Part shown: one piece after another, positions 2,807 to 29,187 of the stretch
How the letters are laid out: each line of letters begins with the position of its first letter
Position numbering within the stretch: position 1 is the stretch's first letter
DNA from: an uncultured Clostridia bacterium
GTDB lineage: Bacteria > Bacillota > Clostridia > Oscillospirales > Acutalibacteraceae
Reading direction: 5' to 3'
DNA length: 33,943 nucleotides
Assembly (NCBI GenBank): GCA_945876745.1
Contig: CAMCPL010000013.1
Location: 1-33,943 of the forward strand
Position numbers and translations under genes: made by a program
Notes under the pieces: model-generated
What the model was told of the DNA's origin: nothing
Database searches by the model: none
The model's input: only the letters and a program-made list of their open reading frames with translations

Positions 2807-2854
2807 TTAAGTATTTTATTATAAAAATCGCTAATAATAAAAACGGTGATTTTT

Positions 2855-3544
2855 ATGGAAGCGTTGTATGTATTAGTGCTCGCCGCTGGCTCGTTTTTAA
2901 CATTGTTTGTACTCGACAAATTAATGGGACACCGCCAAATTTCGCAGATGTCGTTTTTTGATTACGTAGTCGGAATAACGATAGGCTCAATAGCCGCAGA
3001 AATGGCGACAAATCTCGACAAAAGCTGGTACTACGGGGTAATCGCCATGAGCGTATACGCCGCGATAGAAATTTTACTGTCATTTTTAAGTCGCAAAAGC
3101 ACAAAGGCACGAAAGCTTCTTAACGGCAGTCCCATCATTCTTATTTCAAACGGTAAAATAAGTAAAGGCGCGCTCAGGAAAGCAAAAATCAACATCAATG
3201 ATTTGATAACTCAAGCGAGAAATCAAGGCTATTTTGACATCGGTGAAATTGATTATGCCTTAATGGAGGACAACGGAAGCATCAGCTTTCTTCCCTTTCC
3301 GATTTACAGAAGCGCAACGCCGCAGGATATAAACAAAAATCCCGCAAGAAGCGGTTTAGTAATAAATTTAGTCGTCGACGGTAGGCTTCAACAGAACGCC
3401 GTCAGCTATTCCGGCTTAACCGAAAAAGAAGTAGAACGCATAATCGAAGACGCAAAAACACCCCTGTCAGATATCCTGCTTCTCACCATCGACGAAAACA
3501 AAAAAACACAAATCTTCAAAAAAACATCTCCCCTTGAAAATTAA
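2855..3544 (+). CDS. DUF421 (YetF/YrbG-type) integral membrane protein
   Basis: This 229-aa protein of the DUF421 family has three N-terminal membrane segments (about residues 1-20, 33-52 and 57-78) and a cytoplasmic alpha/beta domain. Family hallmarks are visible: the F-D-Y-V-V-G-I-T-I-G-S loop between membrane segments and the NGSPIILISNGKI strand-turn of the soluble domain. Family members in Bacillus are linked to spores and membranes but have no settled biochemical role. A GTG at 2846 is in frame, but the ATG at 2855 follows GGTGA at a normal distance, so I start there. The stop codon lies inside the terminator hairpin shared with convergent nrdD. Confidence 0.85.
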   Translation: MEALYVLVLAAGSFLTLFVLDKLMGHRQISQMSFFDYVVGITIGSIAAEMATNLDKSWYYGVIAMSVYAAIEILLSFLSRKSTKARKLLNGSPIILISNGKISKGALRKAKININDLITQARNQGYFDIGEIDYALMEDNGSISFLPFPIYRSATPQDINKNPARSGLVINLVVDGRLQQNAVSYSGLTEKEVERIIEDAKTPLSDILLLTIDENKKTQIFKKTSPLEN

Positions 3545-6076: not shown

Positions 6077-9000
6077 TTACTGCTTTGTATTGTAGAACGC
6101 GTCAAAGCCGTCGAGCAATACAGTGCGGATTGAAGCAAATCTGTCGTATTTATAAATCATCGCATAATCCTTTGCGTTGATAACGCCGTCGCCGTTTGCA
6201 TCATACGGATTAATTCCGATAACGTGCTCACATCCTACGTCAGCCTTTACCGTCTGTATATCGCTTGCAAAGGTTGCGTTTTCATTTATGCTTGCATAGA
6301 ACGAATAGCTCTCGCCCTGCATAATCTGCATAGTAAATGAGCCGTTTTTGGTTTCATAAGCGTTGCCGTTTACGAATACATAACCGTCAACCAATGTGTC
6401 GCTGATAGCTCCGTCGTCGGTCAAAACCGCTTTCGTTGTAAACACAACATCAAGCAGCTGCGGTATTCTCACACCCGAAAGCTCAATGCCGTTAATACCG
6501 GTGTTACCCTTAACAACGCTCTCAAGCTCCGTTGCGTCAACACTCTCGCCGCCGTTGATGAAAATCTTAATGTAAAGCTCATCGGCATTGTCACAACCCG
6601 ACGGAAGCGGAAGATTGTTGTAAGACTCAATCGGTGAATTAGTTGCGTCATTGCTTATTGCCCTAACGTTCGATTTAGCCACAAATGTATAGCTTACACC
6701 GTCTGTTGAATATGCAACACCCCAGTCACGAGGACCCTTGTTCGAGCTAATTTGCTCCAAATTGAGTGTCAAATCGCAATAGCCCTTTGACGAGGTCTTA
6801 ATAAGCCAGTAGCCGTTGCCCTGCTCATTATCGAGCACCTTCGTTGCGGTAAATCTATTGTCACTCGCCCACGAGGTCTTAACGCCGTAAGCGCCTGTGT
6901 AGCTGAGTGTTGTCGCCGTTTGCGCATTCGGATACATCGAAAGCGTACCGGCATATGCACCGGAGGTATTACCGACAGATGTAAGCGTTGCGTCAACATA
7001 ATCGGCAAACAGCTTCGTAGTATCATTATAATTAAACTTCGTAACAGTTTCGCCCTTGTAATAGAATTTCTTGACATTTATTGCCGAAGCGTCGTCACCG
7101 TTGTGTTCCCAAACGCTGACTGTATACGGTCCGCTTGAAAATGTATTTAGCTTGCCGCTGTTATAAATATCAATACCTGTTTCAACATAATCGCCCGACA
7201 TAATCATATTGCCGTTTGCGTCGATAACGCTGTACTTCATCGGAACGCCGTCAACGCTGTGATACTTAATAGCCGAGGTGCTGAAATAATCCGTCGTTCT
7301 GTTTGTGTACGGCATTTTCAGCGTTTCGGTATCGTTGTTACCGGAAACGATTATATCATTAACATAAAGATTACCCTTTGAAAGTGAGTTATGAAGCGTT
7401 GTGCCCGAGCATGTCAAATTTTCTACCGTTACAAGTCGGATATAAACAACGCTCTTGTTTGCACATTCTGCGGGAAGCGGTGCATTATACAATAGCTGAG
7501 AAAGTGTGCCGGTTGCGGTGAGTGTAATATTATCACTCGCCGAGCTCCAGCTCTTGCCGTCGAGTGAATATTGAAGCTGAACGCTCTTCGGTCCCTGCGC
7601 CGTTGTGTAAGCCTTTGCCGAAAATGCGATATTACTGTAACCTACCGTTGAAAGCTCGTAGTAAAATCCGCTGTCTGCGCTCCAAAGCGCACCGTCGTCG
7701 GGAGCAAGCAAGAATGCCTTGTTGTCTGCGTGCCAATACGGAACATACATATTCTTTGAATCCGCAACGGCAGTCATTTTTGCGCTCTCGTCATAAGCGC
7801 CGCCGTTTGAAAATACTGCGCCGTTTGAAACATTCTGCGAGTAATTTTCAAAGTGCCATTGAACTATCGAATCACCGGCATACGTCAGCACAAGCTCGCT
7901 TAACTCGGAGGTAATCTCCTCGTGCTTTGCATAAGCGCTGACAGTAACTGTATCACCGACGGTATTTGCAGATGTAAACGGATTGAACGGTGCTTCATAT
8001 TTAATATCTTCTCCGCCGTTAATGCTGTAATACAAATCAGCTCCGCCGTTTGTGTCGGTTATTATTACACTATTATTGTTATAAATATGCTCGCTCGTAT
8101 CTGCGATTGAGTCGGTTGTTATAGTCGGTGATGAAAGCGAGGTAACAACCGAGGTTGATGCGCCGTATACTCTGATATTATTAATAGACGCGTCGCCGCT
8201 TGTCTGAGCAACTATCGTATTTATTCCGTTAATCGCAATATTAGTATAAGCAACAACTCGGATATAAACAACATTTTTGTTATCGCACTCGGCAGGAAGC
8301 GAAACCATATCAAACGCCTGCTCCATATTCTTGTTTTTTGTAATAGAATATGTTGCATTTTCAATGTCGGTGTATGTAACGCCGTCAAGCGAATATTGTA
8401 GCTTCCAATCTCTCGGTCCCTTCTTTGAACCGCCCAGCCTTGCAGAGAACGAAATGTGTTCAAAGCCTATTGTCGAGGCTTCAACAGTAAAATACGGATA
8501 TTCGCCCCAAGCAATATTATTAGTCTTGCTTGTAGACATAACCGGAGACTGATCGGAGGATACGGAGCTTTCGGGATTTGCATACAAATCCGCAGAGCCC
8601 GACCACTTAATCTGGGCATTGTCAAGCGCATTTACACTTGCAGTAAGAACGCCTGTTACCGCTTTTTCGCCGTTAGTTGCCGCATAGTAATACTGCGCTC
8701 CTGTTTCGTCGGCAGTAACAAGTCCTGTTTCATTAGCGGAGTAATCATAATCCCACGAAGCAATCGTCTTTGTATAGCCTGTCGGACGTTCACCGGAATT
8801 TACAAAGCAGGAATTAGATGTAACCGCCGTATCCGTGAAGTCAGAAGTATTGCCTGTTACGGTAACGCTGATATTCTTGCCCTGCATACCGTCAATAACT
8901 GTGTAGCTCGAAGCAGTTGCGCCGTCTATATTTCCGTACTCGGTCTTCCATTGATACGAAAGTCCGTCGGTTAGAACAGCTCCGTCCTGCGCCTTTACCA

Positions 9001-11293
9001 CAGCCTCAAGAGTGTCGCCGACATAAGCCGCCTCGTTTATCTCAACCGAGCCTATCGTACCCTTGTTTATTGTAAATTCAGCGTCCTTTGTACCGCTGAA
9101 TCTTCCCAAGCCTGTGAGAGTTGCAGTTGCGGTACCTGCGTTGATATTGTTGCTGTAAGAAACAGAATAATCCTCGCCCTCAACAAGCTTAACGCTCTCG
9201 TAGCTAACGCTTAAATTCGGAGTTTGCTCCAAACCGTTATATGTGCAATCCCTCGTCTGTTCAACTGATGCGCTTGAAATGTTGGCAGTCGAAAGCTGAC
9301 TTGTAATCCAAGTATCACGAGCATTAAACCAATCGTTAAAGCCGTTAATGAAGCCCTGAGCGTCATACGAGCTTGTAGAGCTTATACGCATATTATTCAT
9401 AAGTCCCGATTTTGCAACGGTATTGATATAATATGCCGTATCGTGAAGCACGCCTGTTTCGTCAATAGCCTCGCCTGTCAAAACCTTAATAGCCGGCTTC
9501 ATAATGCTGTACCACTGATTTTGAGCCATGCTCCAAAAATCGGAGCAGTTTGTTGCAAGAGCACCATACAGACTTAAAGGCGCCTTTTTATCATCTGAAT
9601 ATGTCGTTGTCGAGTCATTATATCTCCAACGGTAGATTCGAGTATTTTTTGTATACCAATCGTCAGTAGAAGTATAACTGTGTCCCCAACGGCTTCCGCT
9701 TCTGCCGTAGCCTATTGCATTGTCCATATCCCAAACAGGACCTGCATAAAGCATAGAATCAACCGAGTCGCTATCCTTGTAGAAATAGGTCGACGAGGTT
9801 GAGGAGTCCATATTCTTGAAATACTCCTGCGTCCAGTAATATTTAACTGCACTGTCTGCGTCCAATATTTCATTCCATTTCTTGTTTTGATACTGCGTTG
9901 CAGGAGCAGGATTTGTACAAGAGCTTGCTCCGTAAAGCATAACAGTCGCTATTAATCCCGAGCAGCTTGTCGTTGTGGATTTGCTTGGAACAACACCGCC
10001 GTTATATACCGAAGAGCCAAGAGCATAAAGTAAATCATAGGAATAGTTAAGCATATTTTTCGATATATAATCCGTACTCTTAATTACCCAGCCCTGTCGC
10101 GCATAGGCTCCGAATCCAGCATTTTCTTCAGTCCATCGCTTTGATATTTCCAATTCATACAGATAACCGCCCGAATAATCATCAGGATTTTTCAAATCAC
10201 TCGAATACTTCTTTGCACCAACCTCTAATGCCATACTCGTCAAATCGGCAGTTGCAGTATCTTTACCTGAAACGGTAAGATATGCGTTAACCTTTGTACC
10301 CGTCAAATCGGCAGGTACAACAAGTCCCGTTGCTTCGTCAACCGTACCGTTTGCAATTTCAAGATTATCATAAGCGTCGGTTACATTAATACGATTTGAT
10401 TTTATTTCAACCTTTTCGGAAAGCGAATACGAGCCGTAATACTGCTGATTAACGTATAAATCAACAGGCTTGCACACAGGCTGATACTTAACGCCGATAT
10501 ACTTTGAAAAATCATATGTAATCTGATTTCGCACAAGACTGTCGTCGTCCGCATTTGCAAGAAGCACCCACTTCTTCGCTTTCGGCATACCTAAAAGCGA
10601 GGTCGAAACGGCGAGCTTTACATTATACGGATTTTTTACATTAGCCTTATCCCAAGTACCGTTACCTCTACCCGACATTTTTTCCATAATGCCGTCATAC
10701 TCAATAGTGCCGTCCGGCGCAATAACCATAATCGTGCCGCTTGTATATGTGTCGTGGTTAGTTGAATTAACCTCGGAAATCGAGCCGCTTTGAGTATCAA
10801 TATAAACCGTACCCACATCTCCCGACTTAATTGCAACGAGCGTATAAGAATTTGTGCCTATCTTGAGCGTATATTCCTTTGAAACGCCGCCTGCGTTGAT
10901 ATCTGCAAATACCGATGTATACTCACCGCTTACGAGAGTTGTTCCGCTTATTGATGCGGTGCTTGCGCTGAACCATAGTTTAAGATTTGTACAGTCCGCA
11001 TTGCTCGGCAAAAACAGATAATACTTGTTTTCATTCGTCGCACGGCGGAATACGCCGACTGCGCCCGTCATTGTTGTTTTTGACGTGCCTCGTGTAAAGT
11101 CGTCAACATCCTGCTGAGTAAGCGAATTTTCGGGGTCTGCCCAAAAGCTCAGTCCCGAGCTTTCAAGACTTGACGGTGCGTCGGCAGCACTTGTCACAAC
11201 CGGACAGGCAATTACACTTGTAACTAAAAGTGCAATTACCGTAAGCAATGACAGTATTCTTTTTACTGGTTTGTTTCTTTTAATATTTTTCAT
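6077..11293 (-). CDS. Giant secreted CotH-kinase protein with three related beta modules and a half-dockerin
   Basis: This 1738-aa exported protein has a signal peptide (about residues 1-37). VIAC at 27-30 could be a lipobox; TSAADA could instead be a signal-peptidase I site. A CotH-type kinase domain spans about 180-670, with RGNGTW (209-214), a KKWVLLANADDDSLVRNQ stretch and the metal-site motif GPVWDMDNAIG (518-528). A YDG-like and an Ig-like segment follow. Three similar modules then recur, each carrying GP-(R/K)-(D/S) and (A/Q)YS-D-G-(V/K)-S/T signatures and ending in a LP-x-(E/G)-C motif. The C-terminus has one calcium loop (DANGDGVINAKDY). CotH of Bacillus is a spore-coat protein kinase; substrates here are unknown. 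A TTG at 11311 is in frame, but the ATG at 11293 sits 8 nt after AGAGG and is preferred. Last gene of the four-gene operon. Confidence 0.85.
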   Translation of the reverse strand: MKNIKRNKPVKRILSLLTVIALLVTSVIACPVVTSAADAPSSLESSGLSFWADPENSLTQQDVDDFTRGTSKTTMTGAVGVFRRATNENKYYLFLPSNADCTNLKLWFSASTASISGTTLVSGEYTSVFADINAGGVSKEYTLKIGTNSYTLVAIKSGDVGTVYIDTQSGSISEVNSTNHDTYTSGTIMVIAPDGTIEYDGIMEKMSGRGNGTWDKANVKNPYNVKLAVSTSLLGMPKAKKWVLLANADDDSLVRNQITYDFSKYIGVKYQPVCKPVDLYVNQQYYGSYSLSEKVEIKSNRINVTDAYDNLEIANGTVDEATGLVVPADLTGTKVNAYLTVSGKDTATADLTSMALEVGAKKYSSDLKNPDDYSGGYLYELEISKRWTEENAGFGAYARQGWVIKSTDYISKNMLNYSYDLLYALGSSVYNGGVVPSKSTTTSCSGLIATVMLYGASSCTNPAPATQYQNKKWNEILDADSAVKYYWTQEYFKNMDSSTSSTYFYKDSDSVDSMLYAGPVWDMDNAIGYGRSGSRWGHSYTSTDDWYTKNTRIYRWRYNDSTTTYSDDKKAPLSLYGALATNCSDFWSMAQNQWYSIMKPAIKVLTGEAIDETGVLHDTAYYINTVAKSGLMNNMRISSTSSYDAQGFINGFNDWFNARDTWITSQLSTANISSASVEQTRDCTYNGLEQTPNLSVSYESVKLVEGEDYSVSYSNNINAGTATATLTGLGRFSGTKDAEFTINKGTIGSVEINEAAYVGDTLEAVVKAQDGAVLTDGLSYQWKTEYGNIDGATASSYTVIDGMQGKNISVTVTGNTSDFTDTAVTSNSCFVNSGERPTGYTKTIASWDYDYSANETGLVTADETGAQYYYAATNGEKAVTGVLTASVNALDNAQIKWSGSADLYANPESSVSSDQSPVMSTSKTNNIAWGEYPYFTVEASTIGFEHISFSARLGGSKKGPRDWKLQYSLDGVTYTDIENATYSITKNKNMEQAFDMVSLPAECDNKNVVYIRVVAYTNIAINGINTIVAQTSGDASINNIRVYGASTSVVTSLSSPTITTDSIADTSEHIYNNNSVIITDTNGGADLYYSINGGEDIKYEAPFNPFTSANTVGDTVTVSAYAKHEEITSELSELVLTYAGDSIVQWHFENYSQNVSNGAVFSNGGAYDESAKMTAVADSKNMYVPYWHADNKAFLLAPDDGALWSADSGFYYELSTVGYSNIAFSAKAYTTAQGPKSVQLQYSLDGKSWSSASDNITLTATGTLSQLLYNAPLPAECANKSVVYIRLVTVENLTCSGTTLHNSLSKGNLYVNDIIVSGNNDTETLKMPYTNRTTDYFSTSAIKYHSVDGVPMKYSVIDANGNMIMSGDYVETGIDIYNSGKLNTFSSGPYTVSVWEHNGDDASAINVKKFYYKGETVTKFNYNDTTKLFADYVDATLTSVGNTSGAYAGTLSMYPNAQTATTLSYTGAYGVKTSWASDNRFTATKVLDNEQGNGYWLIKTSSKGYCDLTLNLEQISSNKGPRDWGVAYSTDGVSYTFVAKSNVRAISNDATNSPIESYNNLPLPSGCDNADELYIKIFINGGESVDATELESVVKGNTGINGIELSGVRIPQLLDVVFTTKAVLTDDGAISDTLVDGYVFVNGNAYETKNGSFTMQIMQGESYSFYASINENATFASDIQTVKADVGCEHVIGINPYDANGDGVINAKDYAMIYKYDRFASIRTVLLDGFDAFYNTKQ

Positions 11294-11319
11294 TTTATAT
11301 GCCTCTGTCAAAAGACGAA

Positions 11320-13245
11320 TTATCTGGTGGATTTTATCTTTGCCTCACCGATTTTTGTGTCCCAATCAACTGCCGCCGGTGTTGTAGTTGAATCTCCCAC
11401 GGCTGTATATTCCTCATTTTCGCTCAACGCATAAGAGGAATAAAGGAATTTTGTACACTTATTCTGTGAAGCCTTAACAAGCGCACCGCTTGAATTTTTA
11501 ATTGTTATAATCTGTCTGCGTGAGCTGTCGTCAGCACTTATTGCGCCGTCAGTTGACGAGTTTGAAGTGCTTTTCTTTATTTTTGCGAGAATATTAGCTT
11601 GATCGGCAATCGTAACCTCTGTCAGCTTCTTGCTTTCGCCGACAACAGTACCTGCCGTAATCTTAAAGTAATCTCGTATTTGATTATTTTCGTCAAGCCT
11701 TACTTTAAGATTAGTATCCGCCACGCCGTTGACTGTGTTGTTTACTCGGCGCACCTTAAATGACGATTTTTCAAGCGCAATGCAGGTTATGTTGCCGCCC
11801 GAAATATGTATTCTGTCATCCGTATCAATAGCGTCGCACGCCGATGATACTATCGAAGCAACGCCGCCCTTGCAATAAAAATCATCACATCTTATTGCGT
11901 CGCCGTTGGTTTTTATGTTTACATTGCCCGACTCGATAGTCACCTTGCCGTAAGAGAAAATACCCTTTGCCGAGCCGGAAGCGGCGGCAAGCTTATGAGT
12001 TGAAGTATTCGCCGCAGTAGTCATATCAAGCGTTAAATTCTTGATAGTAACGCTCTTTGTCGAGCATAGGCAATTGTCGGCATTCGTCCTTGACTCAACG
12101 GTAAGACTTCCGTTACCCTTTAATGTCAGCTTCGATTCGTTATATATAACGCCCGTGTAGCTGTTTGCGGTTGAATGGAAGGTTGATGAAGTACCTGTCG
12201 GAAATACCAAATCAACATTCGGCGCCATATTGCTTTCCGCAATCTGCTTAATTGCGTCGTCCATCGAATCGGTTGCCTCAACCTCTGTTTCAAGGAAGGT
12301 TCTTTCAGTCTCAATACTGCTGTCCTGAATTTGAAGAATATTGCCCTTGTTGTAGGAAATATTTACGTTTTCAAACCTTATTTCGCATTCCGCCGTATTC
12401 GGAAGAGTAACGACTATTCTGCCGTGCCATTCGTTTGTATCACTCGTAACGACATAATTCTTCGCCTCGGTGATTTTTACCAATCCTTCGGAAATCGAAA
12501 CGCCCGATTTAGCAGTAGTTTTTGCAGTTGAATTCTTGCCGAGAATAATGTGATTTTCTCTCTTGCTTGTATTCGTATCATTACCCGAAGCGGTATTTCC
12601 CCCGCTTGATTTGTTCGGCTTGTCCTCAACAACCGTAACCTTTTTACCGTCCTGTTGAACAACGGCGGTCGTTCCGTCCTCCTCCTGTTCAACTGTTACG
12701 TTAATCAGATTACCGTTCTCGTCGGTATCGAGCTTAATGAACAAATTGTCCTGAATGTCAATTTGCGAAAGCACCTGGAAATATTCTGCTTTGTCGCCGT
12801 CCTTGTCAACGTCCGTTACGTCAAGCAAAGCAATAATATTGCCTTCTTCGTCAAACAAAGCGTGCATAAGCACAATGCTGTTATTCTCGTCATACGAAAT
12901 CACAACATTACCCGCTTCATTTTTTGAAAGCGCAATAACCTGACCGATAAGCTCAAAAGCTGAAGCCTCAAGCGCATTGCCCTGCGAGTCAACAGCGCTT
13001 TCAACATAGCCGCCGATAACCGTCACGCCGTCCTTGTCAAACACCGGAACGACAGTCAGCTTGTTATTATCGCTGTCTGCTAATTCAATTTTTTCGTGCA
13101 ATATTTCTTCGCTGGGTTGCTGTTCCTCGCCTATTTGAGTTACATCAAGCTTCTCGCTGACTGTTGCGTCAAGACCCGAACACGAAGCAAGCGAAACGCA
13201 AAGCAATACGCAAAGAACTACTGCCGATATTTTCTTAAGTTTCAT
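11320..13245 (-). CDS. Cthe_2159-type beta-helix carbohydrate-binding lipoprotein
   Basis: This 641-aa surface lipoprotein has a signal peptide ending in the lipobox LASC (residues 20-23). About 200 residues of acidic beta-rich repeats follow, then a Ser/Thr/Asn-rich linker (about 215-230). The C-terminal half is a right-handed beta-helix of the Cthe_2159 carbohydrate-binding family: GVSISEGLVKI, then repeated turns such as IKNLTLDM, GKVTIESGNVNIKTNGDAIRCDD, and SACDAIDTDDRIHISGGN. Cthe_2159 of Clostridium thermocellum is reported to bind cellulose and polygalacturonate. The gene lies between DUF4956 (16 bp) and CotH (26 bp to the chosen ATG) in one operon. I infer a wall- or glycan-anchoring role for the CotH system; the ligand is unknown. 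Confidence 0.8.
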   Translation of the reverse strand: MKLKKISAVVLCVLLCVSLASCSGLDATVSEKLDVTQIGEEQQPSEEILHEKIELADSDNNKLTVVPVFDKDGVTVIGGYVESAVDSQGNALEASAFELIGQVIALSKNEAGNVVISYDENNSIVLMHALFDEEGNIIALLDVTDVDKDGDKAEYFQVLSQIDIQDNLFIKLDTDENGNLINVTVEQEEDGTTAVVQQDGKKVTVVEDKPNKSSGGNTASGNDTNTSKRENHIILGKNSTAKTTAKSGVSISEGLVKITEAKNYVVTSDTNEWHGRIVVTLPNTAECEIRFENVNISYNKGNILQIQDSSIETERTFLETEVEATDSMDDAIKQIAESNMAPNVDLVFPTGTSSTFHSTANSYTGVIYNESKLTLKGNGSLTVESRTNADNCLCSTKSVTIKNLTLDMTTAANTSTHKLAAASGSAKGIFSYGKVTIESGNVNIKTNGDAIRCDDFYCKGGVASIVSSACDAIDTDDRIHISGGNITCIALEKSSFKVRRVNNTVNGVADTNLKVRLDENNQIRDYFKITAGTVVGESKKLTEVTIADQANILAKIKKSTSNSSTDGAISADDSSRRQIITIKNSSGALVKASQNKCTKFLYSSYALSENEEYTAVGDSTTTPAAVDWDTKIGEAKIKSTR

Positions 13246-13261
13246 TTTATATCCCTGTCAA

Positions 13262-13966
13262 TTATTGAAAATGGAAGCTCTTTGTTGCAGGAGCCTCTGT
13301 CGAAAGCATAATTTTAAGATTGCCGTTCATAGCACGAAGCTCGTCGAGCATTTTTCTGATATCCTTGTCGTCCTTGAGGTTAACTGAAAACGAAAGCTCA
13401 AACAATGCGCCGAAATCAACCGACTTAACTCTTGCGAGCTTGAATGAATTTGTATACTTCTTGAGCACGTCGTCGAATACGCCTACATAGTTGAGCGTTT
13501 CGGGAACGGTAATTTTCAGCTCATATGTATTGCCCTTCTTGCCTGCGTAATTAACAAAGTGCAAAACAAGAATGATTACGCAAAGAACTGCAACTGCAAG
13601 CGCCGCATAAATCCAATATCCCAGTCCGCAGGTAAGACCCATTGTAACGCTCATAAACACAAACGCAATATCCTTCGGGTCGCCGGGCGCACTACGGAAA
13701 CGAACAAGCGCAAACGCACCTGCAAGCGAAAATGCCGTTGCAACATTATTGCCGATTACCAAAATAACCATACCTACAATCGGAGCAAGCAGTATAAGAG
13801 ATACGCAAAATGCCTGACTGTAGCCCTCTTTTTTGTGGGTAAGCATATAAACGAGGCTGATAACAAAGCCGATGATTGAAGCAGAAATAACTACCTCAAG
13901 TACGCTCTGCCAGCTAAGCATTGTAGCGTAGTCGCCACTCGTTAAATTATAAAGAAAATCCTGCAT
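13262..13966 (-). CDS. DUF4956 membrane protein
   Basis: This 234-aa protein has four likely membrane segments (about residues 22-43, 52-72, 76-90 and 101-139, the last probably two) and a soluble C-terminal alpha/beta domain (145-234). The conserved signature is AFSLAGAFALVRFRSAPGDPKDIAFVFMS-like (about 78-106; key residues R89, R91, D96, D99). No biochemical function is established for DUF4956, which occurs next to VTC-domain and CotH genes. In yeast VTC the membrane part coordinates polyphosphate with arginines, so R89/R91 make a channel role thinkable; this is only inference. Its ribosome binding site AGGAGGAAG is strong. It follows the VTC gene by 11 bp. Confidence 0.85.
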   Translation of the reverse strand: MQDFLYNLTSGDYATMLSWQSVLEVVISASIIGFVISLVYMLTHKKEGYSQAFCVSLILLAPIVGMVILVIGNNVATAFSLAGAFALVRFRSAPGDPKDIAFVFMSVTMGLTCGLGYWIYAALAVAVLCVIILVLHFVNYAGKKGNTYELKITVPETLNYVGVFDDVLKKYTNSFKLARVKSVDFGALFELSFSVNLKDDKDIRKMLDELRAMNGNLKIMLSTEAPATKSFHFQ

Positions 13967-13977
13967 TTTTCTTCCTC

Positions 13978-14760
13978 CTAAAAATTAATAAAATAATCAA
14001 AATCTACCTGTCTGCCGTTTTCGTCAGTCAGATAATAGTTTAACAAATGAGCTTCGGCGTCCCTCTTGTACTTAACGCCGTATTTTGAAAAGCCGTGACT
14101 GAAAAGCTCGTTTTCGCTCAATAGCCTTGTCAGCCAAAGCGGCATTGCGCCGAGAATTTTTATCTCCATTATGTAAACGTCATTCGGCAGTAAAAGCTCG
14201 TCCTCTTCTGTTTCTCCGAAGGTAAAGTTGCTTCGCCTCGTTCTGACGTTTCTGTCGAAGGTCATTCTGAAATTCTTGTCCTCCTTGCCGAAAAGCGCAA
14301 GCCTGTCATATTGAACATAAAGTGCCGGTGCAACCTTGTTTTTGCTGAAATAATAAGCAAGCTCGTTTGCAACCTGATTAGAAAGATAATCCTTTGTTTC
14401 GGGCATAATACCCTCGTTAACAAACGGCGCAACCTCCCTGTTTCTGATTTTTATTCTGCGCTTGTTGCCCACGCCGTTGCACTTCTTCTTTATTTCCATA
14501 AAGATTTTGTCGTCGGGCTCGTTTTTCGGATAGTACGAACGAAGTCGCATCTTTTCCTTGTAAGCCTTACCTGCCGAATTGTCACGTATAACATCGTGAT
14601 TAATCGTATCGTAATATATGCTGTAAATCCTGTACTCATTACCGTTTAGGCAGTAGTCGTCAAGCTCCATATATTCGAGTAATATCGGCAGTATTGAGTC
14701 AAGCTTCTCTTTTGAAATAAGATATTTTTTCTCGTATCGCTTAAATGTTGCGATAGCCAT
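13978..14760 (-). CDS. VTC-domain polyphosphate polymerase-like protein (tunnel fold)
   Basis: This 260-aa cytoplasmic protein is of the VTC superfamily (triphosphate tunnel metalloenzyme fold), whose yeast member Vtc4 polymerises ATP gamma-phosphate into polyphosphate. Basic and acidic strand motifs typical of the tunnel are visible: FKRYEKKYL (6-14), EKMRLRSYY (69-77), FMEIKKK (87-93), NKRRIKIR (99-106), the later FRMTFDRNVRTRRS strand and YIMEIKIL. Unlike eukaryotic Vtc4 it has no SPX or membrane domain; the next gene, DUF4956, could supply the membrane part. It is the first gene of the operon, with a strong GGGAGGTGG ribosome binding site. Polymerase activity itself is not proven for this bacterial branch. 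Confidence 0.85.
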   Translation of the reverse strand: MAIATFKRYEKKYLISKEKLDSILPILLEYMELDDYCLNGNEYRIYSIYYDTINHDVIRDNSAGKAYKEKMRLRSYYPKNEPDDKIFMEIKKKCNGVGNKRRIKIRNREVAPFVNEGIMPETKDYLSNQVANELAYYFSKNKVAPALYVQYDRLALFGKEDKNFRMTFDRNVRTRRSNFTFGETEEDELLLPNDVYIMEIKILGAMPLWLTRLLSENELFSHGFSKYGVKYKRDAEAHLLNYYLTDENGRQVDFDYFINF

Positions 14761-14793
14761 AATCCACCTCCCGACTGAGCTTTACATAGATTT

Positions 14794-14807
14794 TACATAC
14801 CTATGTA
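14794..14807. promoter_or_regulatory. Operator-like palindrome at the VTC operon start site
   Basis: TACATA-CC-TATGTA has perfect 6-bp arms and sits at the expected transcription start of the VTC operon. It is embedded in a cluster of TTTACAT-like words at 14781, 14792, 14804 (TGTACAT) and 14811, with the reverse ATGTAAA at 14866. The first two are 11 bp apart, the direct-repeat spacing common for OmpR-type regulators. Confidence 0.5.
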
Positions 14808-14808
14808 C

Positions 14809-14838
14809 ATTTTACATTATTTTCAACGTCAAAGTCAA
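14809..14838 (-). promoter_or_regulatory. Promoter of the VTC-DUF4956-CBM-CotH operon (TTGACT-N18-TAAAAT)
   Basis: On the minus strand TTGACT (14833-14838) and TAAAAT (14809-14814) are separated by 18 bp. The leader to the ATG at 14760 is about 40 nt and contains the TACATA/TATGTA palindrome. Confidence 0.55.
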
Positions 14839-14971
14839 GATTAAAGATAAAATTAACCTTATATAATGTAAAATTCACTTTTTATTTACAAATATTAATA
14901 TCTGTAATATTGTTATTTTTCAGCACTCTATTCTCATCTTGCCTAACGAATATTATTAAATATATCTAAAC

Positions 14972-15000
14972 TTGATTAATGACTGCAAATGATTTACAAT
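14972..15000 (+). promoter_or_regulatory. Promoter of the two-component operon (TTGATT-N17-TACAAT)
   Basis: TTGATT (14972-14977) and TACAAT (14995-15000) are exactly 17 bp apart on the plus strand. The start site would be near 15007, giving a very short leader with GAGGTGAG as ribosome binding site. The remainder of the 260-bp divergent region is AT-rich and holds the opposite promoter. Confidence 0.65.
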
Positions 15001-15020
15001 AAAGACATAGAGGTGAGCTT

Positions 15021-16142
15021 ATGAAGCGAATAAAAAAGTTCTTGAGGGATATGAAAATCAACACCCGAATAACCCTTTCCTGTATCGGCGGCATATTTAC
15101 TGCAGCACTGATTACCGGATTGGCTGAACTATTTGTAGAACATAATTTCCCCGAAATTCAGGACGAGCTTATTGAGATATTAAGTCACCCAGGCTTCACA
15201 TGGACGCTGATAGCAATAGGTCTTATTTTTGCAATTATTCTTGTTTCCTACATAACGAGCAAAACTATTGTCAAGCCTATCAATATGTTTTGCGACGGCG
15301 TTAGAGAAATATCAAACGGCAATCTTGATTACAAAATCGACTACTACGGAAAAAACGAGCTTGGCATAACTGCCGAGGCGTTTAACGAAATGACCGATAA
15401 GCTCAAGGAGTCAATGGACGCTCTGCAAGCAGTTGAAAAATCAAGAAAGCAATTGATTGCCGGTGTTACCCACGATTTAAGAACGCCGCTAACCACTATC
15501 AAGGGATATACCGAGGGACTTCGTGACGGAATTGCAAACACTCCCGAAAAGCAGCACGAATATCTCCAAACTATTTACTATTCCGCCCTTGATATGCAAC
15601 GACTTCTTGATGAGCTTTTGAACGTTTCAAATCTTGAAACGGGAAAAATCGAGCTAAATTTTCAACCGTGTAATCTCTATGAATATTTAACCGAGTATAT
15701 GTCGGAAGCGTCTTATCTTTTAGAGAAAAAAGGCGTCGAATTTTCGTTTGATGCTTCCAACTTCGACAAAGAAACTACCGTAATGCTCGACCCCGACAGA
15801 TTTTTGAGGGTATTGTCAAATCTTATGACAAACGCAATCAAATATTCCTCAAAAATCAGAAAGCCCAAAATAACAATTTCCCTGCAAAGATACGAAAAAA
15901 GCGTTATCATAACAGTTAAGGACAACGGCATAGGCATAAGCAAGGAAAATCTGCCTCACATTTTTGAAACCTTTTTCCGTGCCGACCAAGCAAGAACAAG
16001 GGTCTCAAACGGTTCAGGTCTCGGACTTTCCGTGTGTAAGGAAATCATAGAGCTTCACCACGGAAAAATATGGGCAAAAAGTACCGAAGGTGAGGAAACC
16101 TCAATTATTATATCACTGCCGAAAATTACACAGGAGGACTGA
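15021..16142 (+). CDS. Sensor histidine kinase (HAMP, HisKA, HATPase)
   Basis: This 373-aa membrane kinase senses an envelope signal and phosphorylates the next gene's product. Two membrane segments (about 16-38 and 59-79) enclose only about 20 extracytoplasmic residues, so the signal is probably read within the membrane or through a partner. HAMP spans about 79-131. HisKA has the phospho-accepting H151 in VTHDLRTP. The ATPase domain has the N box around N271 (NLMTNAIKYS), DNGIG (301-305) and GSGLGLS (331-337). All catalytic motifs are intact. It is divergent from the VTC-CotH operon, which suggests that operon as a target, but the sequence does not prove it. Confidence 0.95.
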   Translation: MKRIKKFLRDMKINTRITLSCIGGIFTAALITGLAELFVEHNFPEIQDELIEILSHPGFTWTLIAIGLIFAIILVSYITSKTIVKPINMFCDGVREISNGNLDYKIDYYGKNELGITAEAFNEMTDKLKESMDALQAVEKSRKQLIAGVTHDLRTPLTTIKGYTEGLRDGIANTPEKQHEYLQTIYYSALDMQRLLDELLNVSNLETGKIELNFQPCNLYEYLTEYMSEASYLLEKKGVEFSFDASNFDKETTVMLDPDRFLRVLSNLMTNAIKYSSKIRKPKITISLQRYEKSVIITVKDNGIGISKENLPHIFETFFRADQARTRVSNGSGLGLSVCKEIIELHHGKIWAKSTEGEETSIIISLPKITQED

Positions 16143-16144
16143 TT

Positions 16145-16831
16145 ATGGCATACAAGATACTTATCGTAGAAGACGACGAAAACATTTCGAGACTTGAAAG
16201 AGATTACCTCGAAGCAAACGATTTTGAGGTTGACTGCGCCTATGACGGCATTGAGGGCTTGCGTATGGCAAGAAACAACGAATACGCACTTCTCATTCTC
16301 GATATTATGCTTCCGGGAATTGACGGTCTCGAAATTTGTAAAGCTATTCGTGATACTATAAATACACCCATAATTTTAGTCAGCGCAAAGCGTGACGATT
16401 TTGATAAGGTTCAGGGCTTCGGCTTCGGCGCAGACGATTATATAGTAAAGCCGTTCAGCCCATCTGAGCTTGTTGCAAGGGTAAAGGCTCATATAAGCAG
16501 ATATGAACGCCTGACCACTCCGCCCGAAAATGATGTTATAATAATCAACGCTTTGAGAATAGAAAAGGACAGTCGCCGAGTTTTCTATCACGACCAGGAA
16601 ATCACCTTTACAAATAAAGAATTTGATCTGCTTGCAACTCTCGCGCAAAACCCGAATACCGTATATACAAAACAAGACCTTATCAGTATGATATGGAAAT
16701 ACGAAGCCGTCGGCGACACTTCAACCGTCACCGTTCACATCAACCGTATTCGTGAAAAACTTTTCGCAATCAACCCAAACACAGAAATTATCAACACCGT
16801 CTGGGGCAAAGGCTACCGATTTTATAAGTAA
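16145..16831 (+). CDS. OmpR/PhoB-family response regulator
   Basis: This 228-aa DNA-binding regulator is phosphorylated by the kinase encoded 2 bp upstream. The receiver domain (1-120) has the acidic pocket VEDDEN, the phospho-acceptor D53 in LLILDIMLPG and the conserved lysine in YIVKPFSP. The winged helix (about 130-228) ends in the typical TVWGKGYRFYK string. GGAGG overlaps the end of the kinase gene, so the two are translated together. OmpR-type proteins bind direct repeats about 10-11 bp apart; the TTTACAT words near 14781-14817 are the obvious local candidates. Confidence 0.95.
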   Translation: MAYKILIVEDDENISRLERDYLEANDFEVDCAYDGIEGLRMARNNEYALLILDIMLPGIDGLEICKAIRDTINTPIILVSAKRDDFDKVQGFGFGADDYIVKPFSPSELVARVKAHISRYERLTTPPENDVIIINALRIEKDSRRVFYHDQEITFTNKEFDLLATLAQNPNTVYTKQDLISMIWKYEAVGDTSTVTVHINRIREKLFAINPNTEIINTVWGKGYRFYK

Positions 16832-22786: not shown

Positions 22787-24343
22787 TCATTCAAACACAA
22801 CCGTTGTAATGCTTTTTTCGGGAAGTGCAATTTTTGTTATATCACCTTGATATGTCTGCTCAAGCTGACTTTCCTGCGTTGTCGTGTAAACCGTCATACT
22901 GTCAGCCTTAACCTTAAATGTGATATTTCTCTGTGCGCCCTCATTAACAATAACCGTGACGATTTTGCCGTCGGGAGTACGGTAAGAAACAGCATTAACA
23001 ATATATCTTTCGCTTGTTTTCACCGTGCCGTCCTCAAGCGGTTCCTCGGTCTTGATAACGTCGTTAATATTCTTTTTGCTCGTCATTTTAACGCTTCCGA
23101 CAGGAATGAATTTGCTGAAATGTGCAACTGCATAATATCTCATTGCAATCTTGTATTCGCTGAAATCATTATTTGCCGCAAGAAGACCGTCCGAATATTC
23201 CCTACCGTCTTCGCCTATGCCTGTATCGTTAACTCCTACCCAAGCCGTCCACGAATTTACATTGCTGAAATCAAGATCGTTTGCCATAACTCTCGCCTGC
23301 AAAAGTGCGCCGTCAATAGAATCTATCGGCGAATTACACGGCAAATGGCACCATTCAGACATTTCAACCGGCACTTCGTCAACATTCTCTTTTATCCATT
23401 CACCAAGAGCGATTTTGTTGTATGCAGAATCATCTGCCCAATAGCTGTGATATGACAGAGTGCCCAAGTACGGACGTATTTCCTCGTCGTTATAAAGATA
23501 TTCAAACCACTCGTAAAGCCTAAATCCGATTTCTCCCGACTCCGGACCGGTGAGCTTAACGTCAAGATTTTTCTCCTTGATTTTTTTTACAACCGCTTTG
23601 TAAACGTCGTAAATATCCTCGGAGTTGTAAAAACAGCCCTCCTGTCCCTGATTAACGCTTTCAACGCCCCACGACCAGTTAGGCTCGTTAATCGGACTGA
23701 TGTATTTTACAGGAACGCCCTTATTAATAAAATACTCGGCAATGGTAACAAGATAGTCGGCATATGCATCGTAATTTTCTCTCGGAAGATTGCTTACCCA
23801 CCATTCCTCGTTTCCGTAAGTCTTGCCGTTGAGCGTCATTGAATAATGCGGAGAGTTTGCAAAAAGCACAACCGTATCAATACAACCGTAAGAAAGACAA
23901 AGGTCTAAATACCTTTGCGCTGCGGCGTCTTTTGTAAAATCATACTCGTACTCGCCCGTTTCCTCGTTGAAAACATAGAAGCTCTCCGTTTTGCGCCACG
24001 GATTTGATATGGCAGAATTCGGATTGTCGGCGGAGCCTGCACCGATATTATATCGGTAAATATTAAGCCCCAAGCCCTCTTTGCTGTAAAGTAGCTTTGC
24101 CGTTTCCTCGGCGTACTCGCTGTCGCCTGCAAGCTGTGACCACCAACACGCAGACGTTCCGAAGCCGTCAAGCGTTTCACCGTTTTTATCGTCGCTGATA
24201 GTCAGCTTCACATCTGCTGTCAGCGACTTTTCAATAAACCACGCCGTGTCCCTGAAAATGTCGTCAAAGAACACCCCGACAACAATCGCACCGACAAGAA
24301 AAATCGCAATAACACCAATTAGTATTTTATGTATCTTTTTCAT
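22787..24343 (-). CDS. Membrane-anchored GH30-family glycoside hydrolase
   Basis: This 518-aa retaining glycoside hydrolase acts on the outside, anchored by an N-terminal membrane segment (about 7-26) with no lipobox. GH30 markers are present in order: LDGFGTSACWWSQ (59-70), IYRYNIGAGS (95-104), FANSPHYSM (161-169), the acid/base E220 in SPINEPNW and the probable nucleophile E330 in EMSEWCH. A C-terminal beta-sandwich (about 435-518) completes the family fold. The GFGTSACWW and RYNIG strings recall the endo-beta-1,6-galactanase subfamily (GH30_5), but glucan or xylan activity cannot be excluded. AAAGGAGAGG precedes the ATG. The gene stands alone between the toxin locus and the accessory island. 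Confidence 0.85.
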   Translation of the reverse strand: MKKIHKILIGVIAIFLVGAIVVGVFFDDIFRDTAWFIEKSLTADVKLTISDDKNGETLDGFGTSACWWSQLAGDSEYAEETAKLLYSKEGLGLNIYRYNIGAGSADNPNSAISNPWRKTESFYVFNEETGEYEYDFTKDAAAQRYLDLCLSYGCIDTVVLFANSPHYSMTLNGKTYGNEEWWVSNLPRENYDAYADYLVTIAEYFINKGVPVKYISPINEPNWSWGVESVNQGQEGCFYNSEDIYDVYKAVVKKIKEKNLDVKLTGPESGEIGFRLYEWFEYLYNDEEIRPYLGTLSYHSYWADDSAYNKIALGEWIKENVDEVPVEMSEWCHLPCNSPIDSIDGALLQARVMANDLDFSNVNSWTAWVGVNDTGIGEDGREYSDGLLAANNDFSEYKIAMRYYAVAHFSKFIPVGSVKMTSKKNINDVIKTEEPLEDGTVKTSERYIVNAVSYRTPDGKIVTVIVNEGAQRNITFKVKADSMTVYTTTQESQLEQTYQGDITKIALPEKSITTVVFE

Positions 24344-24850: not shown

Positions 24851-24885
24851 GAGCCGAGAGGACACCCCTCTCGGCTCGATTTTTT
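24851..24885 (+). terminator. Strong intrinsic terminator behind the SASP remnant
   Basis: A perfect 11-bp GC-rich stem (GAGCCGAGAGG 24851-24861, CCTCTCGGCTC 24867-24877) has a 5-nt loop and is followed by GATTTTTT. It points rightward, as expected for the SASP gene, and abuts the stop codon of the convergent nucleotidyltransferase gene. Confidence 0.9.
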
Positions 24886-25585
24886 ACCATTCGCTTAACT
24901 TATTTATAATGTCATCAACGTTATCCTCTGACAAAACATTTTCGTATTTTTCTTCAAATTGAATTAGATTATCTTTTATGCTTTGCTCGGTTTCCTTTTG
25001 AAGATTATATCCGTCAACAAATGTTTTGTTTTCAATAGCCGTTTTGACAAACTCTACAACATCACCTTTAATTCTATCAAAATTGCCGTATAAATCCACT
25101 ATCGCCTTTTCAATTTGCTGATAAGTTATTTCGTCATTGTTTTTGTAATGATAATAAAGTATGCCGAGAATATCGGACAAATCATTTTTATATTTCCTGC
25201 CCGAGACCATTTTCATAGCTACCAAATACTCACGACTGATTGTTCTAATTTCCAACACATTGCTAAAGGTTTTATAATAACTTGAATACTGTCGTAGTCT
25301 TGGCGAATAAGACGGTGTTTTCTTAAAATCATCATTAAGCCATTGCTGTGAAAGATTATACTTATCAGCAACGAGTTTCGCTGCATCCTTAATAGCACTA
25401 TCATAGGTGTTAAACGCATCAACATCAACACTGTTCATTCTAAAATCATAGTTGAGAAGCACAGAACCACCGCCAACAATGATAATTTCGGCTGATATTT
25501 TTCTTCCGGTAATTCGCTTGAATTCCTTTGCAAGCTCTTTGAGGTACAAATCAATCATATCTTTTTGAATATCGTTACGCAACAT
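24884..25585 (-). CDS. AbiEii-like nucleotidyltransferase, putative toxin
   Basis: This 233-aa protein has a nucleotidyltransferase fold like AbiEii/MenT toxins, which transfer nucleotides to tRNA or other targets. The active-site pattern reads GGGS (38-41), then R49, then the metal-binding D54 and D56 in NSVDVDAF, matching the GG-(T/S)...R..S.D.D layout. The rest is helical. The ATG at 25585 lies within the last codons of the upstream HTH gene (11-bp overlap), with GAGGTG 4 nt upstream, so it is chosen over the in-frame TTG at 25603. The tight coupling to a DNA-binding partner supports a toxin-antitoxin pair; activity and target are inferred. Confidence 0.7.
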   Translation of the reverse strand: MLRNDIQKDMIDLYLKELAKEFKRITGRKISAEIIIVGGGSVLLNYDFRMNSVDVDAFNTYDSAIKDAAKLVADKYNLSQQWLNDDFKKTPSYSPRLRQYSSYYKTFSNVLEIRTISREYLVAMKMVSGRKYKNDLSDILGILYYHYKNNDEITYQQIEKAIVDLYGNFDRIKGDVVEFVKTAIENKTFVDGYNLQKETEQSIKDNLIQFEEKYENVLSEDNVDDIINKLSEW

Positions 25586-26144
25586 CAAACACCTCACTCT
25601 CAACTATATTAAAGCGCAGAAATTCAGGAATCGCATTTGCCTTAGACTTGTCGAGCAAAGACTCGTCATTCATAACCTTTGCCTCTGCTAATATGCTTGC
25701 AGGGTAAATAATTTCATTCAGTTTTGCATTGCGATACTTATTGTATTTTGTGCAAAGAGGAATTTTGTTAATTCGGCTGATATAATCAAGCATAGCTAAT
25801 AAATATAGTGCTTCAGGATACCATTTCTTATTCATATATTCAGTTATATCATCTGATTTGAGAACCGAAACAATAAACTGCTTAAAGCCTAATTCCTTTA
25901 ATTCGTGGCGAATATTACTCTTAAACGCCTCAAATTCATAACGAATATCGTTATTCTTATAGAGCAAATCCTCCATTGAAACACCAAAGAATTTTGAAAG
26001 CTCATAAACAGTTTTAGCATTGCAGTTTTCAAGCGTAGTTTTGCCATTGCAAATATCACTTATCGTCGAATACGGAATATTGGTTTCCTGCGATAATCTG
26101 TATTTTGAAATATTATTTTCTGCCACCAAATAACTGATATTCAT
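25575..26144 (-). CDS. XRE-type HTH protein, putative antitoxin of the nucleotidyltransferase pair
   Basis: In this 189-aa protein, residues 1-62 form an XRE/Cro helix-turn-helix (KYRLSQETNIPYSTISDICNGK), followed by the usual LSKFFGVSMEDLLY helix. The C-terminal part (about 70-189) is a helical domain with YPEALYLLAMLDYISR, and a PASILAEAKVM stretch near the end; I do not recognise it as a named domain. It probably represses its own operon by binding the palindrome at 26165-26190 and neutralises the downstream enzyme. The ribosome binding site is GGTGGTGAT. The toxin gene overlaps its 3' end. Confidence 0.8.
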   Translation of the reverse strand: MNISYLVAENNISKYRLSQETNIPYSTISDICNGKTTLENCNAKTVYELSKFFGVSMEDLLYKNNDIRYEFEAFKSNIRHELKELGFKQFIVSVLKSDDITEYMNKKWYPEALYLLAMLDYISRINKIPLCTKYNKYRNAKLNEIIYPASILAEAKVMNDESLLDKSKANAIPEFLRFNIVESEVFDVA

Positions 26145-26164
26145 TATATCACCACCTATGAAAT

Positions 26165-26194
26165 CATTATAACGGTATTCCGTGATAATGTCAA
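26165..26194 (-). promoter_or_regulatory. Perfect promoter with operator palindrome in the spacer (HTH/nucleotidyltransferase operon)
   Basis: On the minus strand TTGACA (26189-26194) and TATAAT (26166-26171) are exactly 17 bp apart (12 of 12 consensus positions). The inverted repeat CATTATAACGG (26165-26175) / CCGTGATAATG (26180-26190), 11-bp arms with one mismatch and a 4-bp centre, covers the spacer, the -10 and the edge of the -35. A protein bound there would shut the promoter, as expected of an autoregulated toxin-antitoxin operon. Confidence 0.85.
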
Positions 26195-26247
26195 GTTATA
26201 TTAGTATATGTAAGATTCAAAATTCAATATACAGACAAAATGAAATT

Positions 26248-26280
26248 AAGCGTTGGAGAAGCCAAATCTCCAACGCTTTT
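26248..26280. repeat. 33-bp terminator-like direct repeat, left copy
   Basis: The perfect 12-bp stem AAGCGTTGGAGA (26248-26259) / TCTCCAACGCTT (26267-26278) has a 7-nt loop and ends in TTTT. It lies just beyond the stop of the HipA-like gene and is probably its terminator, although the U-tract on that strand is weak. The same 33 bp with two differences recurs in the same orientation at 27725-27757. Confidence 0.8.
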
Positions 26281-26284
26281 GATA

Positions 26285-27076
26285 TTATCTATTGATTTGT
26301 CTTTCAATGATATACTTAACACGATTTATGATTTCAGGATTGTAATATTCATTCAAATCATCAAGAATACTATTCACATCGTCCATAGTAAAACTAATAT
26401 CTAATTGCTTACCGTATAGCTCTTGTGCTGCTTCAACTTGTTTTTTGAAGGTAGCAAACGGCTTTGCATTAACTCTTGCTATGTGTTTTTCGGTATCACC
26501 GTCAAGCCAAAAGCCGTCTAAATCGGATAGTAAAGACAACCCTTGGTCAAAATATGGGCAAAGGCTGAATTCGTTTGTGTTTGGATTGCGAATAATCGCA
26601 ATATTGTTTGTGTGTCTGTCTTCGTTAAGGAAAAACGCATCTATTTCAAGCATTGCAGTTAGGTATTTGCCAAAGTCTTTGATTTTTGTTACATCCTCAA
26701 CAAAGTCAACGGTGTATTTTATTCTATCCTTTGCGTTGTCAAATTCTTTTAGCTTTTGGCTCAAACCGATAGTAGTGTATAATCTGTGCAATCTTTCCAA
26801 CGGAATAAGTTCATATCCCTTATGCAAAAAATTATGGCTGTAGCATCCCGAACGATTGTGGTAACCGAACTCAATTTTGCAGGGATAATATTCAACAAAA
26901 TTTGTAATATTCGTTTTTTTGAGCAAACGAGAAATTACCACCTCGGCAAGTCCCTCGTAGCCCATATGGTCAGCCTTGTACCAGATACCATCAACGCACC
27001 ATTTCGGCTGATTGCCCTTTGACGAATGATTGGCACTTTCTATTATTTCTTTTTCGGATAATTTAACTTGCTTCAT
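26285..27076 (-). CDS. Short HipA-like Ser/Thr kinase, putative toxin
   Basis: This 263-aa protein has the HipA/CtkA-like kinase fold: a glycine loop region SSKGNQPKW (18-26), the ATP lysine K34 in WYKAD, a glutamate in the EGLAEV helix, the catalytic motif LNEDRHTNN (150-158; D153) and the metal motif YFDQG (175-179; D177). It is much shorter than HipA (about 440 aa) because the N-terminal subdomain is absent, like HipT or CtkA. HipA toxins phosphorylate aminoacyl-tRNA synthetases; the target here is unknown. The ATG overlaps the upstream HTH gene by 14 bp, with TAGGAG before it, indicating translational coupling. Confidence 0.8.
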   Translation of the reverse strand: MKQVKLSEKEIIESANHSSKGNQPKWCVDGIWYKADHMGYEGLAEVVISRLLKKTNITNFVEYYPCKIEFGYHNRSGCYSHNFLHKGYELIPLERLHRLYTTIGLSQKLKEFDNAKDRIKYTVDFVEDVTKIKDFGKYLTAMLEIDAFFLNEDRHTNNIAIIRNPNTNEFSLCPYFDQGLSLLSDLDGFWLDGDTEKHIARVNAKPFATFKKQVEAAQELYGKQLDISFTMDDVNSILDDLNEYYNPEIINRVKYIIERQINR

Positions 27077-27638: not shown

Positions 27639-27655
27639 AAAATCACCACTTATAT

Positions 27656-27687
27656 TATATGTAAATTATTTAATTTCATTACATATA
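27656..27687. promoter_or_regulatory. Operator-like inverted repeat of the HTH/HipA-like operon
   Basis: TATATGTAA (27656-27664) and TTACATATA (27679-27687) are perfect 9-bp arms separated by 14 bp. They lie between the -10 and the start codon of the operon, a suitable place for repression. The surrounding sequence is very AT-rich, which lowers the weight of the match. Confidence 0.5.
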
Positions 27688-27688
27688 T

Positions 27689-27717
27689 ATAATAAAACAA
27701 TTTCACAACTATGTCAA
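27689..27717 (-). promoter_or_regulatory. Promoter of the HTH/HipA-like operon (TTGACA-N17-TATTAT)
   Basis: On the minus strand TTGACA (27712-27717) and TATTAT (27689-27694) are exactly 17 bp apart. The leader to the ATG at 27638 is about 45 nt. Confidence 0.75.
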
Positions 27718-27724
27718 TAGGAAA

Positions 27725-27757: not shown

Positions 27758-27794
27758 CTGTTATTAACATTCGGTCTTATTGAGTTCAATTATA

Positions 27795-28754: not shown

Positions 28755-28758
28755 AGTA

Positions 28759-29175: not shown

Positions 29176-29187
29176 AGACTTTCTCCG

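Follow-up and report, generated by a model that had tools for sequence, protein, structure and literature searches.

We analysed a window of 33,943 bases, an entire contig of an uncultured Clostridia bacterium of the order Oscillospirales, whose genome measures 1.93 Mb at a completeness of 98.6%. On the reverse strand of the window, a gene for a VTC-type polyphosphate polymerase is followed by one for a DUF4956 membrane protein. These two genes form a near-obligate, subfamily-specific pair, and their link goes far beyond chance. Judging from the sequences, the polymerase has an intact active site, DUF4956 is a remote relative of MgtC, and the place behind the pair is taken in turn by two unrelated genes, Cthe_2159 or CotH, whose products carry secretion-type signals. 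The pair probably makes up a bacterial polyphosphate synthase of two genes that is coupled to the membrane and works with a surface partner that can be exchanged.

The VTC protein (TTM polyphosphate polymerase, 13978..14760, reverse strand) has 260 amino acids, no visible membrane segment and a PF09359 match with an E-value of 1.6e-47 and 162.5 bits, compared with a curated cut-off of 23. The DUF4956 gene (13262..13966, reverse strand; PF16316, 2.1e-15) encodes a membrane protein with an ACT-like cytoplasmic domain. Among 147 genomes of the order, VTC is present in 99 and DUF4956 in 96; three genomes have VTC without DUF4956 and none has the reverse. For 125 of the 134 VTC matches in these genomes, DUF4956 is encoded on the VTC strand no more than 2 kb away, and in 124 of these it is downstream. 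The nine remaining matches are located at contig ends (G115, G121), are partial or weak (G018, G111, G090, G099, G085) or, for two of them (G093 C111, G071 C4), are full-length VTC genes with no adjacent DUF4956. Beyond the order, DUF4956 was found beside VTC in all 27 newly fetched loci of the phylum. It was also found in 77 of 80 loci from named genomes, a set that includes relatives from the order, one Treponema and two Anaeroplasma records, and that overlaps slightly with the order set (at least one VTC protein is identical). Two of the three exceptions (L229, L230) are cut by contig ends within VTC or directly behind it, and the third (L283) continues for about 1.3 kb past VTC without DUF4956. 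In the control genomes, matches to both families fall in the same three out of 14.

The specificity of the pairing was evaluated in the 26 genomes with two or more pairs. For each VTC we identified the nearest VTC elsewhere, and compared the DUF4956 next to it with the query's own DUF4956 and with that of the paralogue. In the 60 comparisons where the VTC identities differ by more than three points, DUF4956 tracks the subfamily of its own VTC in 58 and goes against it in 2. The identities of VTC and DUF4956 correlate at 0.90 over 24,976 pairs, a value to which shared ancestry contributes, less so in the within-genome test. An earlier, sequence-only reading of the window had placed the two genes in one system, and both the adjacency and the subfamily-specific partnership agree with it.

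A profile built from 30 VTC relatives matches the structures of yeast Vtc4 with an E-value of 9.8e-22. In the alignment, R72, R74 and E199 of the window protein correspond to R264, R266 and E426 of Vtc4, numbered with an inferred offset of three from the chain numbering. According to the accessible part of PMC9911596, these three residues form the triple that was mutated to inactivate Vtc4. We followed the conservation through 224 VTC-DUF4956 pairs, i.e. 124 pairs of the order, the 27 phylum loci and 73 of the 80 named-genome loci, short fragments being excluded by length. R72, R74, E199, K12, K70, E89, K91, K100, R153, R165 and K201 are identical in all ungapped rows, K226 is kept in 223 of the 224 pairs (once replaced by E), and K93 is replaced by R twice. 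The tunnel and catalytic residues, whose loss would have counted against the sequence-only reading, are intact in the window protein and, almost without exception, in the rest of the set, and the window VTC looks active by its residues. No PPK1 or PPK2 was matched in the genome of the window at an E-value of 0.001, so VTC is the sole candidate polyphosphate synthase found there.

DUF4956 has four to five membrane segments by hydropathy. When 124 DUF4956 sequences were compared with nine MgtC sequences using hhalign, the probability was 97.9% with an E-value of 5.6e-13 over 194 columns, and a second run gave 99.0%. The nine MgtC sequences originate from genomes of the same family as the window and represent 9 of 13 loci above the cut-off. 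The match covers most of the length, both the membrane part and the C-terminal domain, and five control membrane families from the loci obtain a probability of 0.9% or less against DUF4956. By this profile comparison DUF4956 is a remote relative of MgtC/SapB (PF02308). PF02308 itself does not match the window DUF4956 at E-values up to 1, and among 31 genomes it picks up a single DUF4956 (G118), below threshold, with an E-value of 4.9e-4 and 20.8 bits against a cut-off of 31.4. The C-terminal domain has a weak likeness to ACT domains (E-value 0.44). The glutamate-arginine pair that is invariant in the nine aligned MgtC sequences is missing from DUF4956, which has an RxR motif. The two arginines of the motif, R89 and R91, were singled out as conserved already from the window alone, and they are invariant in all 124 pairs of the order; in the wider set R91 is found in 224 of 224 and R89 in 223 of 224. 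Hydropathy and charge appear to place the motif close to where a membrane helix meets the cytoplasm. MgtC is a virulence and phosphate-balance protein, and we know of no settled molecular job for it.

To describe what follows the pair, we built profiles of CotH and Cthe_2159 from the loci and counted only loci outside the genus of the window with adequate flanks on both sides. With flanks of at least 2.5 kb (144 loci), 43 loci have CotH, 44 have Cthe_2159, 2 have both and 55 have neither, while independence would give 14.4 loci with both. When flanks of at least 7 kb are required (102 loci), the numbers are 32, 28, 0 and 42, with 8.8 expected to have both. These counts supersede an earlier and looser one (CotH 64, Cthe_2159 67, both 2, neither 55; 24.2 expected, p 2e-14), which took in loci too short for a second gene; the p values for the alternation ignore shared ancestry. 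On a tree of the pairs there are at least 8 partner switches among 135 loci, compared with a mean of 45 in 50 shuffles, i.e. the partner is kept over long stretches and has been swapped several times. As 42 of the 102 loci with the longer flanks have neither partner, the VTC-DUF4956 pair can stand alone. Within the order, neither gene is in the fetched stretch of 38 of the 134 VTC loci, some of them on short contigs. CotH is near the pair in 50 of the 125 order rows (46 genomes), and among the 150 CotH matches listed for the order genomes, 98 have no VTC match within 6 kb. The neighbour counts based on the Pfam CotH and Cthe_2159 profiles are lower bounds, 150 matches being listed for each, and the locus-built profiles were used in their place. 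Divergent members can escape the locus-built profiles, as did the giant CotH of L216, a locus counted as having Cthe_2159 only. Judged by gene content, CotH and Cthe_2159 are alternatives, two unrelated predicted surface proteins at the same place in the operon.

In the genus of the window both genes follow the pair. The series VTC, DUF4956, Cthe_2159 and giant CotH is found by profile in 10 loci, the window included, and by alignment in L216; in the remaining loci of the genus the contig stops before CotH would be visible. Outside the genus all four families are found together only in L233 and L289, with different gene orders. The sequence-only reading had joined the four neighbouring genes in one candidate system. 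The VTC-DUF4956 half of this stands, as a near-obligate pair, but the full set was seen only in the genus and the two loci just named. A single system of four parts is not supported, given the alternation of CotH and Cthe_2159 and the 55 of 144 adequately flanked loci that have neither.

In the window, the pair is followed by a divergent member of the Cthe_2159-type beta-helix lipoproteins (11320..13245, reverse strand; PF14262, 8.8e-13 over residues 254-509) and a giant secreted CotH-family protein of 1744 amino acids (6077..11311, reverse strand; PF08757, 4e-19). The Pfam scores of all four proteins are above the curated cut-offs. Along the operon the first two gaps measure 11 and 16 bases, and the third measures 8 bases if CotH starts at its TTG or 26 if it starts at the next ATG. 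Open reading frames and Pfam matches reproduce the gene order read earlier from the letters, including the divergent two-component system and the gaps of 11, 16 and 26 bases, the last being the distance to the ATG. VTC is 71-80% identical to that of the window in 16 related loci, and the closest named relatives are uncultured Ruminococcaceae or Oscillospiraceae and other Clostridia, including RUG-, red-deer- and rabbit-named assemblies.

An N-terminal signal or anchor was assigned by a simple hydropathy rule to 49 of 52 CotH and 43 of 46 Cthe_2159 neighbours in the order loci, and 27 of the 46 Cthe_2159 proteins have a lipobox. Read by eye, the window proteins carry signals too: a lipobox-like LASC close to the N-terminus in Cthe_2159, and one of Sec type in CotH. 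This supports the earlier view that the products span cytoplasm, membrane and surface. Cthe_2159 proteins are described in the accessible part of PMC6712302 as beta-helices that bind cellulose and polygalacturonic acid. Eight other members of the genus have giant CotH proteins 48-55% identical to the one in the window, and N500, D502, D528 and D530 are identical in all nine aligned. N500/D502 and D528/D530, which we take to be catalytic residues, fall on the N-x-D and WD motifs in an alignment with 16 canonical CotH neighbours, whose profile matches the CotH structure 5jd9 with an E-value of 7.3e-27. By this alignment, the window CotH keeps the catalytic or metal-binding aspartate motifs of CotH kinases. 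It also has discoidin-like matches below threshold and, in the C-terminal region, one dockerin-like repeat, also below threshold (17.8 against 22.9 bits). Cohesin gave no match in the genome of the window and six in G145 of the same genus. Cellulosomal proteins would have a full dockerin and cohesins in the genome; in the window CotH and its genome neither is found.

Divergent to the operon are a sensor histidine kinase whose extracytoplasmic segment is short (15021..16142, forward strand; HAMP, HisKA and HATPase_c) and an OmpR/PhoB-type response regulator (16145..16831, forward strand; Response_reg 3.6e-28, Trans_reg_C 1.3e-24). Genes of the kinase cluster occupy 33 of 246 places at positions -1 and -2 from VTC, compared with 4 of 315 at positions -3 to -5. 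Chance placement of the two-component system is rejected by these numbers, yet the link is seen in a minority of the loci. Kinase and regulator are both present within -5 to +7 genes in 34 of 134 loci, 24 of them immediately upstream (16 on the same strand, 8 divergent). In the genus, 10 of 18 loci, including the window, have a kinase homologue transcribed divergently from VTC, and of the eight loci without one, L225 and L226 have less than 2.1 kb upstream. Another gene cluster (six genes in 5 genomes) is found at -1 or -2 of VTC, and the one gene tested from it (L099:11613-12662) encodes an RsgI-like anti-sigma protein. A gene of about 205 amino acids between divergent kinase and VTC was observed in L218 (7172-7780, with a TetR_N match) and, judged by size and place only, in L219, L221 and L224.

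A consensus scan identified a candidate sigma-A-type promoter of the VTC operon, TTGACT-18 bases-TAAAAT (14809..14838, reverse strand), with 10 of 12 matches. The region contains 31 promoter-type sites against 26.2 in shuffles, which is near chance, and by eye TTGACT-type sites precede VTC in several members of the genus. A direct repeat, TTTACA-N5-TTTACA, is located at 14781-14797, just before the VTC start. A Pho-box in the VTC/kinase intergenic region was considered and rejected: the genome contains TTHACA-N5-TTHACA 13 times and the reversed control pattern 8 times, and a similar site is found in only 3 of 15 other genus loci tested, where it is placed elsewhere.

Outside the operon, the contig has a stretch of low GC content at 24884-30345 (29-38%, while both flanks are at about 43%). 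It encodes a DUF6036 nucleotidyltransferase next to an HTH protein, a second HTH protein of resolvase type, UPF0158 and a Fic protein, and it looks like an acquired island, possibly of toxin-antitoxin or defence type. The glycoside hydrolases GH95, GH30 and GH31 (109-2754, 22790-24343 and 30544-32511) fit a glycan-degrading gut bacterium. A YetF/DUF421 membrane protein (2846-3541) is near the operon and outside it.

Related gene sets are known. According to the accessible text of PMC7112168, Gram-positive Pel loci contain cotH, a poly-P polymerase gene, DUF4956 and DUF4832 beside the pel genes. SIR_1594-1591 are Streptococcus accessory genes of this kind in the available part of PMC12345266, where the membrane protein is described as MgtC plus an ACT domain; by the gene order given in PMC7112168, SIR_1592 would be DUF4956. 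As in the window, the VTC, DUF4956 and CotH families are adjacent in these loci. The window differs from them in that no DUF4832 was found, Cthe_2159 is placed between DUF4956 and CotH, CotH is giant and the two-component system is divergent. An accessory module of a Pel locus would adjoin pelDEADAFG; PelG has no match in the genome of the window, the other pel genes not having been searched by name. According to the accessible part of PMC12345266, its authors did not find CotH, polymerase and membrane protein genes arranged in this way outside Pel. Contrary to this remark, the arrangement is common here without PelG, which exceeds the cut-off in 1 of the 147 order genomes (four reach an E-value of 0.001), against 99 with VTC. 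In that genome (G116, C29 46265-50808), PelG, CotH, VTC and DUF4956 are consecutive. The available part of PMC2879425 describes two VTC-domain genes in NELoc-2 of C. perfringens, each followed by a gene for a membrane-located protein of 222-226 amino acids, with CotH after the second. The membrane proteins are annotated as tubulin/FtsZ, and by size and place they would be DUF4956. The RsgI-like gene upstream of the L099 pair recalls the sigma/anti-sigma genes of NELoc-2.

The eukaryotic VTC complex (Vtc1/Vtc3/Vtc4) uses the same TTM polymerase family with tunnel residues that align, and according to the accessible part of PMC9911596 its synthesis of polyphosphate is coupled to a channel with a lining of basic residues. 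The bacterial VTC differs in that it has neither an SPX domain nor a VTC-type membrane domain (only PF09359 is above the cut-off in VTC and only DUF4956 in its partner), and the membrane part belongs to another protein, which is MgtC-like. In a search largely without subscription papers and without bioRxiv preprints, no publication turned up that deals generally with VTC-DUF4956 pairing or with the combination of VTC and Cthe_2159. The set of CotH, polymerase and DUF4956 is already in print from Pel loci, whereas its spread without Pel, the specificity of the pair and the alternation of CotH with Cthe_2159 were not found there.

In the explanation that we prefer, VTC would be a cytoplasmic tunnel enzyme making polyphosphate from ATP, and the MgtC-like DUF4956 its dedicated membrane partner, which would hold and control VTC at the membrane, presumably in a physical complex, and possibly pass the chain outward past the RxR at the cytoplasmic end of the membrane helix. 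Export of polyphosphate is plausible. The third gene would add an exchangeable surface partner, the Cthe_2159 beta-helix or CotH, acting on surface polymers or proteins together with the pair and under shared control; in the genus of the window both follow the core, often beside a divergent two-component system. A more far-reaching proposal, which we put forward only tentatively, is that the pair might correspond, in bacteria, to the VTC polymerase-translocase of eukaryotes, with an MgtC-fold conduit, RxR-guided export and surface polyphosphate handled by Cthe_2159 or CotH.

Several observations limit the preferred explanation or speak against it. In a coupling analysis of VTC and DUF4956 (224 pairs, effective depth 185) the top inter-protein score is 1.27, against shuffled maxima of 0.72-1.22 from a shuffle that ignores phylogeny, so this score is no proof of contact. 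No fusion of the two proteins, as a sign of contact, is found in the order loci. VTC shows neither complementarity nor linkage to PPK1, which is present in 32 of 99 VTC genomes and in 18 of 48 others (Fisher p 0.58) and is missing from 67 of the 99; the idea that the two are complementary alternatives is rejected on these counts. As Salmonella MgtC acts on PhoR and on ATP synthase, the role of DUF4956 may be to regulate rather than to conduct. For Streptococcus intermedius, the accessible part of PMC12345266 reports that deletions of CotH and of the DUF4956-type gene reduce aggregation in sputum medium, with lower and higher Pel respectively, and that the polymerase deletion aggregates and has Pel, no change being reported in that part. 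The components there are therefore not simply one pathway.

If DUF4956 were instead an MgtC-like membrane sensor or regulator that tunes VTC, ATP or phosphate balance, polyphosphate would stay an intracellular store. This fits the alignment with MgtC, which extends through the weakly ACT-like C-terminal domain, the many pairs without CotH or Cthe_2159, and the account in the available part of PMC6658541, where Salmonella MgtC targets PhoR and activates phosphate transport. The many operons that also encode secreted or surface proteins speak against it, and a near-invariant RxR at the membrane edge would not be explained by a sensor role alone; we consider it somewhat unlikely. The genes could also be an accessory module of exopolysaccharide (Pel-like) production that tunes the amount of matrix polymer and aggregation, as proposed for Streptococcus and Clostridium. 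PelG directly adjoins CotH-VTC-DUF4956 in G116 and such genes are known beside pel (accessible parts of PMC7112168 and PMC12345266), but with PelG so rare in the order compared with VTC, and with no polysaccharide synthase among 18 other window proteins scanned, such a module is improbable here.

The sequence-only reading went further with the hypothesis that exported polyphosphate supplies the secreted CotH kinase with phosphate, on a wall or glycan scaffold to which Cthe_2159 is bound. In favour of it, there is little ATP outside cells, the N-x-D and WD motifs are retained in CotH, which looks secreted, and the window and the 10 other loci of the genus with contigs long enough to include CotH all have the four genes together. 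However, elsewhere CotH and Cthe_2159 replace each other or are both missing, many pairs have no CotH, and most of the listed CotH matches are far from VTC. In addition, the available part of PMC12345266 does not report that the S. intermedius polymerase deletion shares the CotH phenotype. The donor role is the weakest part of that reading, and we regard it as very improbable.

If the tentative counterpart to the eukaryotic polymerase-translocase is true, the MgtC superfamily would gain a transport-type function tied to phosphate. In the literature searched, no description of a bacterial VTC-membrane connection was found, though two thirds of the order genomes (99 of 147) have VTC. The near-obligate MgtC-related partner makes both this connection and the job of MgtC testable in a single two-gene system.

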